Below are positions 1-6,353 of a stretch of 6,353 nucleotides of DNA, in pieces (the first letter of the stretch is position 1; each line of letters starts with the position of its first letter). A program made the translations under genes and the position numbers. Source of the DNA: an uncultured Bdellovibrio sp. (lineage in GTDB: Bacteria; Bdellovibrionota; Bdellovibrionia; Bdellovibrionales; Bdellovibrionaceae); NCBI GenBank assembly GCA_946482355.1, contig CAMLRE010000136.1:1-6353 (forward strand), read 5' to 3'. The notes beneath the pieces are model-generated. The model had not been told where the DNA came from. It saw only the letters and a program-made list of their open reading frames with translations, and made no database searches.

Positions 1-403
1 GGGTGACTAGGTCACAGTGCTCTAATCTGGCTTTAAGGCTAGCTGCCGGTTCAAAGGGCGCAAAACATCTTAGGTTTTTAATCTGAAGTTGTTCAACGAT
101 TTGCTCTAAATCTTGGCTTTTAAATTCTTTAGGGTCGTGAATTAAGAATAACCAGTCAGCATCAAAGTGATTTTTACAACCAACAAGTGTCCATGGTTTT
201 TTCTCAGGATGCGGACGCATCGGAAAACCAATGTCATGAACTAACTGCGATAACTCCATCGGAGTTTTAGTTTTACTGTAGCGGTGAATTTCTGAAAGCA
301 AAAAGCCCGAATTGAAATTAAGCTTTTGCCACCATGGGTTTTGCGGGTCTTCAACTAAGACCCACAATTTACAAGATGTCGCCGAAAGATTAACGTCTTT
401 CAT
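1..403 (-). CDS. Unrecognised protein, 3' end missing (runs off left edge)
   Basis: An open frame without stops reads leftward from an ATG at 403-401 to the window edge, giving at least 134 residues. The start lies inside the end of nusB: the two genes overlap by 14 bases in different frames, so the gene is probably the third member of the nrdR-nusB operon and translationally coupled. The visible protein begins MKDVNLSATSCKLWVLVEDP and is rich in Trp and Phe (WW at residues 24-25), with no signal peptide or membrane segment and several scattered Cys residues (11, 76, 113, 130). I do not recognise a family and assign no function. Codon use matches its neighbours, and the overlap architecture argues that it is a real gene and not a chance frame. 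The C-terminus is outside the window. Confidence 0.8.
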   Translation of the reverse strand, partial: MKDVNLSATSCKLWVLVEDPQNPWWQKLNFNSGFLLSEIHRYSKTKTPMELSQLVHDIGFPMRPHPEKKPWTLVGCKNHFDADWLFLIHDPKEFKSQDLEQIVEQLQIKNLRCFAPFEPAASLKARLEHCDLVT

Positions 404-791
404 TTCTGATCACCTGATCAATGATACCGTTTACAAATGAAGCCGCTTCTTGCGTTCCGTAAGTTTTTGCAATTTCAATCGCTTCGTTCATGGCGATTTT
501 TGGTTCGATTAATTCAGGAGTAAAAAAGATTTCGCAAACAGCAATGCGGATGATATTGCGGTCAACTGAAGCCATACGGTCAATCTTCCAGTGGCGAGAC
601 GCCTCTTGGATTTTTGCATCGATTTTTTCTTTGTTGGCCTGCACGGCTCTTACGATGTCATAAGTGTATTTAAGAGTAGCTTCTTCGAAATTTTTATCAA
701 AGACCGTAGCTAAATCAGAAAGAGACATCTGTGGGGCAAATTCAGTTTGGAATAGGATCTGGAGTGCGAGTTCCCTTGATTGTCTTCTCAT
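390..791 (-). CDS. nusB: Transcription antitermination factor NusB
   Basis: This is the all-helical RNA-binding protein that, with NusE (ribosomal protein S10), binds boxA RNA and supports processive transcription of rRNA operons. The 133-residue length is normal for the family. Family signatures are clear: the N-terminal MRRQSRELALQ, the W68-x3-R72 segment leading into DRNIIRIA (77-84), then NEAIEIAKTYGT (102-113) and FVNGIID (119-125). The ATG at 791-789 is right because the conserved RELALQ segment begins immediately after it. The first 50 bases lie within the end of nrdR in another frame, and the last 14 bases overlap the start of the next gene. The Shine-Dalgarno match is poor (a GAAAGA-like run), which fits coupling to nrdR translation. 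The first 17 codons use AGA, AGG, CTC and CTA, unlike the TTA/CGT preference seen elsewhere in the window. Confidence 0.97.
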   Translation of the reverse strand: MRRQSRELALQILFQTEFAPQMSLSDLATVFDKNFEEATLKYTYDIVRAVQANKEKIDAKIQEASRHWKIDRMASVDRNIIRIAVCEIFFTPELIEPKIAMNEAIEIAKTYGTQEAASFVNGIIDQVIRNERR

Positions 792-1326
792 TGTTCGTAT
801 CTTTCAGTTCTTGTTGTTTCGGTTGCGGTTGTAATTGTGTCGTTAAACTTAATTGCGGGCCCGCTGTATCAATCATATCGATGAGTTCATCACCTTCAAG
901 TTTTTCCACGAAATCCTGGACGTCTTTAAAGGTTTTATAAACACTGGCGAATCTAACGTAAGCTACGTCGTCGAGTTGTTTTAGTTCAGCCATAACACGG
1001 CGGCCGATCACACGAGCAGAAATTTCACCTTCACCACGAGTAATAACCCAAGAAGCAATTCGTTCAACGATCGCATCTAATGCAGCTGTTGAAACCGGGC
1101 GTTTATTACAAGCGTAAGATAAACCACGTAATAATTTTTCTTTGCTGAAAGGTTCACGGCGTCCGTCTTTTTTGATCACAAACGGGTAACTTAAAACCAC
1201 GGTTTCTAAAGTTGAGTATCTAGATTTACACGATAAACATTCGCGACGGCGGCGGATGCCTCCATCTTTCTGTACGCGTGTATCTAAAACTTTGTCTTCG
1301 GAATGTCCGCAAAAAGGGCATTTCAT
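742..1326 (-). CDS. nrdR: Transcriptional repressor NrdR with C-terminal extension
   Basis: NrdR is a zinc- and nucleotide-binding repressor of ribonucleotide reductase genes that senses ATP/dATP through its ATP-cone. The N-terminal zinc ribbon is complete: Cys3, Cys6, Cys30 and Cys33, with the family's Arg-rich run (25-28) just before the second Cys pair. The ATP-cone spans about residues 48-138, opening with VIKKDGRREPFSKEKL. NrdR proteins are normally about 150-160 residues; this one has 194. The extra tail from about residue 150 is rich in Gln and Pro and looks disordered, and its last 16 codons overlap the nusB start. The ATG at 1326-1324 places the first Cys pair as usual and has an AAGGA ribosome site 9 bases upstream. 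Transcription probably continues into nusB. No NrdR-box pair was seen in the upstream 140 bases, so autoregulation is not supported here. Confidence 0.97.
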   Translation of the reverse strand: MKCPFCGHSEDKVLDTRVQKDGGIRRRRECLSCKSRYSTLETVVLSYPFVIKKDGRREPFSKEKLLRGLSYACNKRPVSTAALDAIVERIASWVITRGEGEISARVIGRRVMAELKQLDDVAYVRFASVYKTFKDVQDFVEKLEGDELIDMIDTAGPQLSLTTQLQPQPKQQELKDTNNEKTIKGTRTPDPIPN

Positions 1327-2164: not shown

Positions 2165-3358
2165 ATGAAATTACACTTTCACGTTTTAAAGAAAATCGCT
2201 GAAGCTTTACACGATATTTTTGAAAACAAAAAATACGCTGATAAAGTGATCGAAAAATTATTCAAAGGTAATAAAAAATTAGGTTCACGCGATCGTAAAT
2301 TTATCGCGGAAACAATTTATCAAATCGTTCGTTACCACAGATTTTACCAAACTGTGGCTGAATCAAATGAATCGTACAATTTATTGTGTGCCCACTTAGT
2401 GAAAAACGGATTAGACACTGAAGAATTTCAAGACGAATATCCGATTGATATCGATGTTATTAAAGCCAATTTAAAGAAAAAATATCCACTGGTTGTGACT
2501 GAATCATTTCCTGATTGGATGAACGAAATGGGCGAAAAAGAATTCGGCGCTGATGAGTGGAAGCAAATCATGCACGCCTTAAACCGCCCGGCGGATGTGT
2601 ACCTTCGCACCAACACTTTACGAATTGAACGTGAAGCTTTAATGAAAGAATTAGAAAAAGAAGAAATCATTACTGAAAAAGTAGAAGGTTTGCCAGAGTG
2701 TTTACGTTTGGTCGAACGTAAAAATGTTTTTACCACTCAAGCTTTTAAAAATGGTTACTTCGAAGTTCAAGATGCGGCTTCGCAATTTATCGCACCGTTA
2801 TTAGATTTAAAACCTGGTCTTCGTGTGGTTGATGCTTGTGCCGGTGCCGGCGGTAAATCACTTCATATGGCCTCGTTAATGAAGAATAAAGGTAAGATCA
2901 TTGCGATGGATATTCACGAGTGGAAATTAGGCGAACTTAAAAAACGCGCCGCTCGTAATAAAGTAGATATCGTTGAAACAAAAGTGATCGAGGGCAGCAA
3001 AACTGTTAAGCGTTTGGAGGCTTCGTTTGATCGTGTGTTATTAGACGTGCCTTGTACGGGTTGGGGAGTGATCCGTCGTAATCCAGATACCAAATGGAAA
3101 TTAAATCCAGATGAAATTGACCGTCTTTTAACATTGCAACGTGAGATCATCACAGACTATTCGAAGATGTGCAAAGTTGGTGGACTTATGGTTTATGCAA
3201 CTTGCAGCATTTTAAATCAGGAAAATGAAAATCAAGTAAAATGGTTTTTATCGTCTCCTGAGGGGCAAAAATGGAGCTTCAAAAAAGAAATTCGTTTATG
3301 GCCACATAAAGACAACTTTGATGGCTTTTATGCCGCTCTTTTAGAGAAGAAGTCGTAA
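2165..3358 (+). CDS. RsmB/NOP-family RNA cytosine-5 methyltransferase
   Basis: A cytosolic SAM-dependent enzyme that places a methyl group on C5 of cytosine in RNA; the best-known relative, RsmB, modifies 16S rRNA C967. The 397 residues (E. coli RsmB has about 429) begin with a NusB-like helical RNA-binding domain (about 1-120; SRDRKFIAETIYQIVRYHRF at 41-60 is the typical core). A linker follows, then the Rossmann-like methyltransferase domain from about 195. Visible motifs are motif I for SAM (DACAGAGGK, 223-231), the acidic end of the next strand (MDIHEWK, 248-254), motif IV DVPCTGWGVIRRNPDTKW with Cys297, and motif VI YATCS with the nucleophile Cys347. The end, RLWPHKDNFDGFYAALL, is also typical. 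Both catalytic cysteines are present, so it should be active. The NusB-domain fusion favours RsmB over RsmF, but the exact target base is not determined by the sequence. Confidence 0.92.
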   Translation: MKLHFHVLKKIAEALHDIFENKKYADKVIEKLFKGNKKLGSRDRKFIAETIYQIVRYHRFYQTVAESNESYNLLCAHLVKNGLDTEEFQDEYPIDIDVIKANLKKKYPLVVTESFPDWMNEMGEKEFGADEWKQIMHALNRPADVYLRTNTLRIEREALMKELEKEEIITEKVEGLPECLRLVERKNVFTTQAFKNGYFEVQDAASQFIAPLLDLKPGLRVVDACAGAGGKSLHMASLMKNKGKIIAMDIHEWKLGELKKRAARNKVDIVETKVIEGSKTVKRLEASFDRVLLDVPCTGWGVIRRNPDTKWKLNPDEIDRLLTLQREIITDYSKMCKVGGLMVYATCSILNQENENQVKWFLSSPEGQKWSFKKEIRLWPHKDNFDGFYAALLEKKS

Positions 3359-3462: not shown

Positions 3463-4914
3463 TTGGTATCAGCAAACAATCTCATTGCCGGAAAATGGAC
3501 TGCGGGTTCACAGGGTGAACGTTCAGTTGTTTCTCCTTACGACGGCAAACAAATCGGAACATATTCAGTTCCGTCATTAGAACAAATTAATACAGCGATT
3601 AAAGCAGCAGACGAAGCCCAAAAAGCGTGGGGCCGACTGCCTATCAAAGAGCGTAGCAAAGTTTTATTTAACTTTCGCAATATCTTACTTCGCGATATCG
3701 ATAAAATTTCAAAAATCAAAGGTGCCGAATGCGGTAAAGTTTTTGACGAAGCTAAAGCCGGCCTTATGAAAGGTATCGAAGTTTTAGAATACGCTCTTTC
3801 AATTCAAAATTTAGATACCGGTGGAAAAACTGAAGTATCACGTGGTGTTTCTTGTGAATACCGCCGCGAAGCTTTAGGAGTGGTTGCGAACATTACGCCG
3901 TTTAATTTTCCAGCGATGGTTCCGATGTGGACAATTCCAATTGCGATTGCTTTAGGTAACTCTTACGTGTGGAAACCTTCTGATAAAACGCCATTAACTT
4001 CTTATTTTATCGGAGAAGCTTTAAAAGAGGCGGGATTACCTGATGGCGTATTCACAATTCTTCATGGTGGTCATGAAACTGTGAATGCAATTATCGATCA
4101 TCCAGCGGTTAAAGCGATTGGCTTTGTCGGTTCTACAAAAATTGCTAAGTTAGTTTACCAACGCGGAACAAACTTAGGAAAACGTGTTCTTGCTTTAGGT
4201 GGAGCAAAAAATCATATCGTTTTACTTCCTGACGCAAATCTTGAAATCAGTGGCGTTGGTATTTCTGATTCTTTCACAGGTTGTGCGGGTCAACGTTGTA
4301 TGGCGGCTTCTGTGTTATTAGCAGTAGGTGATACAAATGGTCACATCGAGCAAATCGTAAAACGTGCTTCTTCGTTAGAGCTTGGCAAACAAATGGGTGC
4401 CATCATTACGAAAGAACAAGTTCAGTTTTTAAATAATGCGATCGCTTCAGCTGAAAAAGCCGGTGCGAAAGTTATTCTTGATGGCCGTAAAGCTAAAGCG
4501 CCTCCGGGTATGGAAGGTGGAAACTGGATTGGTCCTACGATTTTAGATAATGTTCAGCCAAATTCTGAAGCTTCAAAAGTTGAATTATTCGGACCGGTGT
4601 TATCAATCATTCGTTGTAAAGACATTTCACAAGCCATGAGCATTGCGAACAGCAGTGAATACGGAAATGCGTGTTCAGTGTTTACTTCAAATGGCGGTTT
4701 AGCTGAGCGTGTAGCGCGTGAAGCGCATGCTGGTATGGTGGGTGTAAACGTTGGAGTTCCGGTTCCGCGTGAGCCGTTCTCTTTCGGTGGAACAATGGAA
4801 TCAAAATTTGGTCACGGTGATATCACTGGCGAACAAAGTTTAAATTTTTGGTCTAACTATAAAAAAGTAACAGTTAAGTGGGAAATGCAAAGCGACTCTA
4901 ATTGGATGTCGTAG
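3463..4914 (+). CDS. mmsA: CoA-acylating methylmalonate/malonate-semialdehyde dehydrogenase
   Basis: An aldehyde dehydrogenase superfamily enzyme that oxidises (methyl)malonate semialdehyde with NAD+ and CoA to propionyl-CoA or acetyl-CoA, with loss of CO2. The 483 residues match the family length. The N-terminal region is NLIAGKW...PYDG; the cofactor region contains NITPFNFPAMVPMW (143-156) and WKPSDKTP (170-177). The catalytic motif is GQRCM with Cys279, followed by ELFGPVL (374-380) and GVNVGVPVPREPFSFGG (427-443). The general-base Glu of hydrolytic aldehyde dehydrogenases (LELGGKN) is replaced: here the segment reads ALGGAKNH (244-251), with no Glu, as expected for the CoA-dependent MmsA group. 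The start is TTG. The next gene begins 9 bases after its stop, so the two are almost certainly co-transcribed. MmsA usually serves valine, inositol or beta-alanine breakdown; beside URC1/URC4 I infer that it consumes malonate semialdehyde from uracil. Confidence 0.92.
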   Translation: MVSANNLIAGKWTAGSQGERSVVSPYDGKQIGTYSVPSLEQINTAIKAADEAQKAWGRLPIKERSKVLFNFRNILLRDIDKISKIKGAECGKVFDEAKAGLMKGIEVLEYALSIQNLDTGGKTEVSRGVSCEYRREALGVVANITPFNFPAMVPMWTIPIAIALGNSYVWKPSDKTPLTSYFIGEALKEAGLPDGVFTILHGGHETVNAIIDHPAVKAIGFVGSTKIAKLVYQRGTNLGKRVLALGGAKNHIVLLPDANLEISGVGISDSFTGCAGQRCMAASVLLAVGDTNGHIEQIVKRASSLELGKQMGAIITKEQVQFLNNAIASAEKAGAKVILDGRKAKAPPGMEGGNWIGPTILDNVQPNSEASKVELFGPVLSIIRCKDISQAMSIANSSEYGNACSVFTSNGGLAERVAREAHAGMVGVNVGVPVPREPFSFGGTMESKFGHGDITGEQSLNFWSNYKKVTVKWEMQSDSNWMS

Positions 4915-4923
4915 AAGGTTGTT

Positions 4924-6177
4924 ATGGCAGAAACAAAAAAATCAAATCATATTATTTTAGCGTCGCACACGAATCTTAAATATAAAGAAACATTACCCAT
5001 TAACTGGGGAGCCAAAACCGCTGCTGAGCGTGGACCTGTTGTTGCCTCAATGACAGATAACAAAACTCGTAATGCGATTGGCGCTCACTCAGGATCATAC
5101 ACTGTATACCGTGCACTTTCGATTGCTTCTGGAAAATTCTCTCCAGTGCATAGACCAGATCTTCATAACACTGAAGCTCCAACACCAATCGGTCCTTACC
5201 CACAATGGCAAGATGCAACTAAAATCGTAACTCACGATCCATGGGGTTTAGATCCGCAAATTCATTTCAAAGAATTTTTTGATAAAGGTTACGACATCCG
5301 TCCAACGATTGCGATGACTCAGGCGCATTTACAATTACCTGAAGTTTACGAAGCGATTAAAGCGGGCCGTTTAAAACCAGACGGTAAAATCGTTAAAGAA
5401 AACGGCGATATTCGCGTAACTAAAGTAGCGTTAGAGCCTGTTTGGTATTTACCGGGTGTAGCAGAACGTTTAAATGTCACAGAAGGTGAATTACGTAAAA
5501 TTTTATTTCAAGAAACAGGCGGTATGTATCCAGAATTTATCACTCGTCGTGATTTAAAAGTTTGGTTACCACCAATTGGTTCATCAACAGCGTACATCTT
5601 TGGTGATGCGCGTGATTTAGCAAAACCTGAAGTAGAATTAACTTGCCGTGTGCACGATGAGTGTAATGGTTCTGACGTATTCGGTTCTGATATTTGTACA
5701 TGCCGTCCATACTTGATGTATGGAATCGAAGATGCGGCTCGCACAGCTCAACGCGGTGGTGTGGGTATTATCGTGTATTACAGAAAAGAAGGCCGCGCTT
5801 TAGGTGAAGTGACGAAGTTCTTAGTGTACAACGCGCGTAAACGCCAAGAAGGTGGCGACACAGCTGCCACTTACTTTAAACGCACTGAGTGCGTAGCGGG
5901 TACAGAAGATGCGCGTTTTCAAGAATTTATGCCAGATGCATTACACTTCTTCGGTATTAAAAAAATTCATAATTTACATTCAATGAGTAACATGAAATAC
6001 GACTCGATCGTGAAAAGCGGTATCGAAGTTGTAAATCGTATTTCTATTCCGCCAGAATTAATTCCGGCTGATGCGCAAGTTGAAATCGAAGCTAAAAAAG
6101 CAGCCGGTTATTTCTCTCCAGGCGGAGCGAAAGACACTGACGGGCTTAAAAAAGTAAAAGGACGCGACATTGAGTAA
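4924..6177 (+). CDS. urc1: GTP cyclohydrolase II homologue, URC1/Urg1 type (uracil catabolism)
   Basis: This 417-residue protein has two parts. The N-terminal domain (about 5-215) is of the kind found in URC1-type proteins (Pfam GTP_CH_N), with RPTIAMTQAHLQLPE (126-140), EPVWYLPGVAERLNVTEGEL (171-190) and LPPIGSSTAYIFGD (215-228). The GTP cyclohydrolase II domain covers about 225-376. The zinc cysteines align with E. coli RibA Cys54/65/67 as Cys247, Cys258 and Cys260 (same C-x10-C-x-C spacing); Tyr302, Asp329 and Arg331 align with Tyr105, Asp126 and Arg128. The RibA motif RCDCG reads ICTCR here, and QEGRNIGL reads KEGRALGE. Riboflavin RibA is about 200 residues and lacks the N-terminal domain. 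Yeast URC1 is required for uracil breakdown, so a ring-opening step in that pathway is inferred; GTP as substrate is not shown. AGAAGG (4913-4918) serves the ATG. The stop overlaps the next gene by 8 bases. Confidence 0.88.
   Translation: MAETKKSNHIILASHTNLKYKETLPINWGAKTAAERGPVVASMTDNKTRNAIGAHSGSYTVYRALSIASGKFSPVHRPDLHNTEAPTPIGPYPQWQDATKIVTHDPWGLDPQIHFKEFFDKGYDIRPTIAMTQAHLQLPEVYEAIKAGRLKPDGKIVKENGDIRVTKVALEPVWYLPGVAERLNVTEGELRKILFQETGGMYPEFITRRDLKVWLPPIGSSTAYIFGDARDLAKPEVELTCRVHDECNGSDVFGSDICTCRPYLMYGIEDAARTAQRGGVGIIVYYRKEGRALGEVTKFLVYNARKRQEGGDTAATYFKRTECVAGTEDARFQEFMPDALHFFGIKKIHNLHSMSNMKYDSIVKSGIEVVNRISIPPELIPADAQVEIEAKKAAGYFSPGGAKDTDGLKKVKGRDIE
6158..6162 (+). promoter_or_regulatory. Ribosome binding site for the TTG start of the URC4-like gene
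   Basis: AAGGA sits 7 bases before TTG at 6170, inside the end of the preceding gene. An in-frame stop at 6155-6157 excludes any earlier start, and the next in-frame ATG (6260) would remove the conserved N-terminal segment. Confidence 0.7.
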
Positions 6178-6353
6178 GCAAGTCACACTTTCAAATAACG
6201 AAATTAATTATATTCTATCACCGCAAGCGATTCGTGATTCATCGAAAAAAGTTTTTGATATGACAGTCGCTGGCGATGGTTATTTTACATTTAACGCTGA
6301 TAAAATGCAGCCGACAGTGAATTACGTTTTAGACGTGATCAAAAAGAATTATC
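6170..6353 (+). CDS. urc4: URC4/Urg3-family (DUF1688) protein, N-terminal part
   Basis: Only the first 61 codons are inside the window; the frame is open to the right edge. The start is TTG, overlapping the previous gene's stop by 8 bases, so translation is coupled. The visible segment ILSPQAIRDSSKKVFDMT (15-32), then the acidic/aromatic stretch GDGYFTFNADKMQPTVNYVL (35-54) and DVIKKNY (55-61), follows the pattern I recall for the DUF1688 N-terminus (L-s-x-x-A-[IV]-R-...-F-...-Y-V-x-x-x-I-x-x-x-Y-P). In yeasts URC4 is needed to use uracil as nitrogen source; its chemistry is not settled. The position right behind a URC1-type gene is the strongest support. The assignment rests on pattern memory over a short segment, without a profile search. 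Confidence 0.72.
   Translation, partial: MSKQVTLSNNEINYILSPQAIRDSSKKVFDMTVAGDGYFTFNADKMQPTVNYVLDVIKKNY

Follow-up and report, generated by a model that had tools for sequence, protein, structure and literature searches.

What becomes of the three-carbon fragment when a bacterium takes the uracil ring apart, and why should a CoA-acylating aldehyde dehydrogenase stand ahead of the genes that open it? These questions are raised by a stretch of 6,353 nucleotides from an uncultured Bdellovibrio sp. (contig CAMLRE010000136.1; hereafter the window), at whose right-hand end a gene of the mmsA type is followed on the same strand by homologues of URC1 and URC4, two genes of the yeast URC pathway of uracil breakdown, the latter cut by the window edge. 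An earlier note on this DNA had proposed that uracil would here supply both nitrogen and acetyl-CoA. In our reading, to which we give a probability of about 0.7, the genes in the window are the front half of an operon of five, mmsA-URC1-URC4-upp-udk, presumably read as a single transcript, that would salvage uracil and uridine for carbon; we infer every reaction and the physiological role from what was computed, namely gene content and order, co-occurrence, the absence above cut-off of three urea-degrading families and a fold match.

The three gene identities given in that note proved correct, each protein scoring above the cut-off of its family. The dehydrogenase does so marginally (450.8 bits against 448.5 for NCBIfam TIGR01722, CoA-acylating methylmalonate-semialdehyde dehydrogenase), URC1 reaches 719 bits against a cut-off of 403 for NF005536, and the 61-codon fragment of URC4 lies just above the DUF1688 cut-off (26.4 against 25 bits), with a complete relative at 479 bits, as had been expected of the downstream protein. 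The genes are tightly packed, with nine bases between mmsA and URC1 and an eight-base overlap between URC1 and URC4. Beyond the window edge the run can be followed in two genomes whose DNA is 90% (G257) and 81% (G169) identical over the whole window. URC4 continues in the first and is complete in the second, and in both it is followed by matches to a uracil phosphoribosyltransferase, which the earlier note had anticipated, and to a uridine kinase family protein. In G169 the gene directly after URC4 encodes Upp (TIGR01091, 216.3 against a cut-off of 208.35), and Udk is above the cut-off of NF004018 (215.6 against 180) and below that of TIGR00235 (186.2 against 220.3).

URC1 loci were read for the best 80 of at least 581 relatives, that is, genome contigs with a URC1 alignment. 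The order mmsA to URC1 on one strand recurs in all 23 of the loci L006-L028 (mmsA being truncated by a contig end in two), which is more than chance; upp comes after in 22 of them and the kinase cluster is represented in 21; the contig of L006 stops within URC4, and L022 has an unclustered open reading frame (ORF) at the kinase position. Over the whole set of 80, a URC-linked mmsA lies upstream in 27 (L006-L028, L037, L038, where it is a 45-residue fragment, L045 and L085), and one locus, L030, has a canonical mmsA downstream.

Co-occurrence was examined in 290 genomes drawn evenly from the phylum, with a threshold of E <= 1e-120 for mmsA. URC4 was found in 110 of them, URC-linked mmsA in 108 and both in 98, so that mmsA is present in 98/110 genomes with URC4 compared with 10/180 without. 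The association in relatives, which the earlier note had left to a survey, is borne out: mmsA lies on the same strand, 1273-1453 bases upstream of URC4, in 90 of the 110 URC4 genomes, a spacing that corresponds to the room of URC1. Contig ends hide some further cases. In the URC4-only class, URC1 of G284 adjoins a partial mmsA at a contig start and the contig of G282 stops within URC1, and in G146, G151 and G260, counted as non-adjacent or mmsA-only, mmsA adjoins URC1 at a contig end. Neighbourhoods were read for five of the 12 URC4-only genomes (G076, G094, G183, G190, G201, G226 and G268 were left out, as were the URC-gene neighbourhoods of G147, G162 and G178).

URC1 is predicted to open the uracil ring of a uridine nucleotide (UMP, UDP or UTP). 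The window protein is 61% identical to a Gordonia protein from an annotated URC1-URC4-upp run, and Cys247, Cys258 and Cys260 are invariant in all 14 aligned sequences. Its closest solved chains, 7ej3 and 7eev (591 bits, residues 7-416), are titled GTP cyclohydrolase II and presumably stem from the work of Zhang et al. 2021 (ACS Catal) on UTP cyclohydrolase; by sequence comparison, no difference from that enzyme is established. PMC12507026 cites this work for the URC pathway, and the reference list of PMC9499338 includes a citation on the mechanism of UTP cyclohydrolase. A URC1-like cyclohydrolase, 49% identical, is also encoded on a Rhizobium leguminosarum plasmid (L005, 11920-13119), with no URC4 or upp match nearby; an annotated deaminase and a Rieske domain protein are encoded upstream of it, possibly another ring-opening route.

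For the URC-linked MmsA we predict the conversion of malonate semialdehyde to acetyl-CoA and CO2, a reaction described for MmsA (PMC6572756). All seven solved sequences that match it at E < 1e-100 are titled methylmalonate-semialdehyde dehydrogenase or similar. Arg278-Cys279 is constant in the 44 aligned MmsAs, and position 244 is Ala, Cys, Ser or Thr in every one, with no Glu before the GGAKNH motif; we take the Arg-Cys pair (GQRC) and the non-Glu position to be hallmarks of methylmalonate-semialdehyde dehydrogenases. The URC-linked protein is ∼41% identical to canonical MmsAs, and the 1034 plasmid records that match it at E 1e-40 are all <60% identical. A tree splits, with full support, the URC-linked side (39 sequences, 12 of them labelled as unlinked to URC) from five canonical MmsAs, which come, among others, from an iol cluster of Phaeobacter and from a Deinococcus plasmid where a Zn-hydrolase and an aminotransferase are encoded in the same cluster. 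Three of the sequences labelled unlinked (L102, L108 and L110) are in fact followed by URC1 at the end of their contig, and the nearest named relatives of the window protein are Pseudobdellovibrionaceae and Bdellovibrionales contigs. Lys103 and Arg436 are found in 39/39 sequences of the URC-linked side, compared with Arg and Val or Met in 5/5 canonical MmsAs. In L030, from Cellvibrionaceae, URC1-URC4-upp-udk is followed by a canonical MmsA (TIGR01722, 694 bits), and MmsA therefore seems to have joined the gene set at least twice. A further MmsA group, ∼50% identical to that of the window (L103, L104 and L107), comes from genomes without a URC4 match (G113, G278 and G217, respectively). L029 (13265-17497) and L033 (3918-8099) each have an ORF of ∼1400 residues with an aldehyde dehydrogenase domain, placed after upp in the former and after udk in the latter; that of L029 is no MmsA but resembles PutA, a bifunctional proline dehydrogenase.

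URC4 looks like an N-ribosyl hydrolase of the Qng1 fold, a predicted enzyme that would cut bases off sugars. The model and its match to the Qng1 fold were obtained on a Pseudobdellovibrio relative (L027). The residues K273 and E304, present in 44/44 URC4s, fall in hhalign register with the catalytic residues K199 and D231 of Qng1, by a weak alignment. The Q_salvage family (PF10343) matches 29 of the 44 URC4s at E up to 10, the best at 1.1e-6, and six of ten URC4s scanned singly, where the cut-off is 25 bits and the scores run from 14.5 to 25. When the URC4 profile was searched against PDB sequences, the two matches returned were at chance level, and neither was Qng1. No Q_salvage was found in 117 genomes from the phylum of L085, where the controls were also without a match, and it was found in one of 16 other genomes. 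At G277:C54:19756-20929, between matches to URC1 and upp-udk, the URC4 match is split in two, with stops in the first piece.

From these parts a complete route can be proposed. Upp and Udk would convert uracil and uridine to UMP, and URC1 would open the pyrimidine of a uridine nucleotide, which would then break up into malonate semialdehyde and a ribosylurea phosphate. URC4, through its Qng1-like fold, would cleave the ribosylurea phosphate to urea and ribose phosphate, and MmsA, with NAD+ and CoA, would turn the malonate semialdehyde into acetyl-CoA and CO2, replacing the yeast reduction to 3-hydroxypropionate. A 2014 study by Rasmussen reportedly had yeast URC8 make 3-hydroxypropionate from malonate semialdehyde. 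The products of the yeast route are given as urea and 3-hydroxypropionic acid (PMC3869809, PMC7530994). Urea would exit as waste, and the gain would lie not in nitrogen but in carbon, NADH and ribose phosphate, uracil most likely yielding acetyl-CoA and ribose phosphate. The fuller proposal, a carbon-directed URC route by which a predator lineage would burn uracil and uridine taken from prey, with a dedicated MmsA subfamily, discarded urea and, in addition, URC4/DUF1688 as a Qng1-type hydrolase acting on ribosylurea phosphate, we regard as evenly balanced between right and wrong.

The contender that survives best is that MmsA mainly detoxifies malonate semialdehyde, with acetyl-CoA incidental and uracil broken down mainly for its ribose phosphate. 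Malonate semialdehyde is reactive. Some genomes lack a neighboring mmsA, and "toxicity problems" appear in the title of a Rut pathway paper cited in our sources; however, reduction by a common dehydrogenase would then suffice, with no need for a dedicated CoA-dependent enzyme, and the position of mmsA as first gene suggests a matched flux. We think detoxification unlikely as the main role, although it retains appreciable weight and overlaps with carbon salvage.

Distinctly less probable is that the same route operates for nitrogen, as in yeast, with the urea used through an unrecognised urea-hydrolysing enzyme. The yeast URC pathway is indeed a nitrogen source (PMC7530994), and URC1-URC4-upp is widespread in bacteria beyond the phylum, but an oxidative, CoA-linked ending brings no gain in nitrogen, and the known urea enzymes were not above cut-off in genomes with URC4. 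Urease alpha was found in one of the 290 genomes (G198, without URC4) and in none of the 110 with URC4, compared with matches in 3/14 controls; urea carboxylase was above cut-off in 0/290 genomes and 1/14 controls; and allophanate hydrolase gave no match at E 1e-100 in the 290 genomes, with one of 14 controls matched. Matches to urea carboxylase below cut-off occur in 284/290 genomes and, among the matches listed, all end before position 463 of 1201, presumably representing the biotin carboxylase part common to other carboxylases. With none of the three enzymes above cut-off in the 110 URC4 genomes, urea is therefore most likely discarded, an outcome that rests on the relatives' genomes and not on the window's own. 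Of the dual yield put forward in the earlier note, the supply of nitrogen is contradicted by this gene content, whereas the predicted acetyl-CoA ending is well supported by context, because none of the refuting results named in that note was obtained and uracil phosphoribosyltransferase and uridine kinase are present in relatives. The gene set is real and conserved, and its ending in carbon is soundly inferred. The life on other cells' RNA that the earlier note suggested would fit the phylum.

Other sources of the substrate were sought in 60 genomes, hand-picked from the 90 with adjacent mmsA-URC genes. HIBADH (valine) and IolD (inositol) were above cut-off in 0/60, with weaker matches in five and three genomes, respectively, and on this count inositol or valine breakdown was rejected as the purpose of mmsA; neighbours pointing to either were among the results that the earlier note had named as refuting its proposal. 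The reductive pyrimidine route was likewise rejected, D-hydantoinase being above cut-off in 0/60, with weaker matches in 27 that are presumed to be dihydroorotase-like proteins. Among the routes tested, URC is therefore the sole remaining source of a C3 semialdehyde in these genomes. That the URC-linked MmsA acts on some other aldehyde, such as valine-derived methylmalonate semialdehyde, and lies here by chance or for co-regulation is very improbable, for although its subfamily departs from canonical MmsA in identity and at Lys103 and Arg436, and MmsAs can accept both substrates (PMC6572756), these marker counts, the co-occurrence with URC4 and the canonical MmsA that adjoins the same URC genes in L030 all speak against it.

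Several observations weigh against the carbon-salvage operon. Most of the remaining URC1 loci, largely outside the phylum, have neither form of mmsA within the sequence examined. Nor is mmsA obligatory inside it: mmsA lies apart from URC1-URC4-upp-udk in G031, G152, G238 and G277, and these four genes occur without any mmsA at E 1e-120 in G016, G032 and G040 (G032, G040 and G226 carry a 37-39% identical mmsA relative elsewhere in the genome). The Fisher's exact p of 4e-51 for co-occurrence of mmsA and URC4 ignores kinship, and the urea-carboxylase search scored only two candidates per genome. The URC-linked MmsAs form a subfamily of their own, the window protein barely passes the family cut-off, and Lys103 replaces an arginine that we take to be the substrate-carboxylate residue, R107 of B. 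subtilis IolA. With regard to URC4, the profile match to Qng1 is weak on its own (hhalign probability 1.6%, E 0.032), a profile built from 35 Qng1s and run by hmmsearch over 44 URC4s reached no more than 2.5 bits, where reversed sequences reached -0.9, and the URC4 of L086, close to that of the window, has no Q_salvage match.

The features of the window are collected in Table 1. At the position equivalent to the TTG start of mmsA, the nearest single-contig relative (L086) has ATG. The Rfam scan of the window gave no match above the gathering score, promoter-like sites were no commoner than in shuffled sequence (6 against 6.2), and terminator-like sites number six (3.2 when shuffled), all of them intragenic. 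Among the loci read, nrdR and rsmB precede the operon only in the two nearest genomes. Because the frame of the 271-codon ORF between them opens antisense within nrdR, translation probably begins at position 1456, an in-frame ATG that lines up with the first codon of the L086 homologue.

Table 1. Genes of the window, those of the operon first
Feature	Position	Strand	Remarks
mmsA, CoA-acylating (methyl)malonate-semialdehyde dehydrogenase type	3463..4914	+	TTG start; Pfam Aldedh 416 bits
URC1, GTP cyclohydrolase II homologue (UTP-cyclohydrolase type)	4924..6177	+	GTP_CH_N 267 bits and GTP_cyclohydro2
URC4 (DUF1688), first 61 codons	6170..6353	+	cut at window edge; TTG start; PF07958 26.4 bits
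NusB	390..791	-	upstream of operon
NrdR	742..1326	-	upstream of operon
ORF, 271 codons	1303..2118	+	no Pfam match; resembles a secreted or outer-membrane protein
RsmB/F-type 16S rRNA methyltransferase	2165..3358	+	upstream of operon

How far does this set depart from what has been described? That MmsA can serve a malonate-semialdehyde route is not new, having been described for substrates that generate beta-alanine (PMC6572756); the part not found described is the link of mmsA to URC genes. No title on an mmsA-URC operon or on a URC4 fold was found in the open-access literature searched, and an earlier description is possible. Canonical MmsAs, of iol and other C3/C4-semialdehyde clusters, share the TIGR01722 family with the URC-linked form, which stands on a separate side of the tree. 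Bacterial URC1-URC4-upp clusters are found on Gordonia, Azospirillum and Pseudoroseomonas plasmids and in many genomes, with the three genes in the order of the operon, but in these three plasmid records, whose gene tables are incomplete, neither an mmsA match nor a kinase-cluster member was found. URC4 differs from Qng1/DUF2419, the queuosine-5'-monophosphate N-ribosyl hydrolase, in its Pfam family (DUF1688, not Q_salvage), in a Glu that replaces the Qng1 Asp and in its predicted ligand, ribosylurea phosphate rather than queuosine monophosphate. The DUF1688 family still carries its unknown-function name, and PMC7530994 still calls steps of the URC pathway not characterized; the proposed fold would provide, for fungi as well as bacteria, a mechanism of URC4 action that can be tested.

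The comparison is closest with the fungi. The yeast pathway (URC1, URC4, URC6 and others in Lachancea kluyveri) and the operon both have URC1, URC4 and a uracil phosphoribosyltransferase, and the clustered urg1, urg2 and urg3 of S. pombe encode a GTP-cyclohydrolase-II-type protein, a uracil phosphoribosyltransferase-like protein and a DUF1688 protein, respectively (PMC2174524). Yeast degrades its urea by URC3/URC5 (PMC7530994), whereas the relatives that carry the operon are without a known urea enzyme. Where the yeast route ends in 3-hydroxypropionate, reportedly by the reductase URC8, the operon has an acylating dehydrogenase; it also has a uridine kinase. The operon would in this way supply a carbon end for the URC route in bacteria and, if our reading is true, a nitrogen pathway would have been turned into a carbon pathway in a phylum known for bacterial predation.

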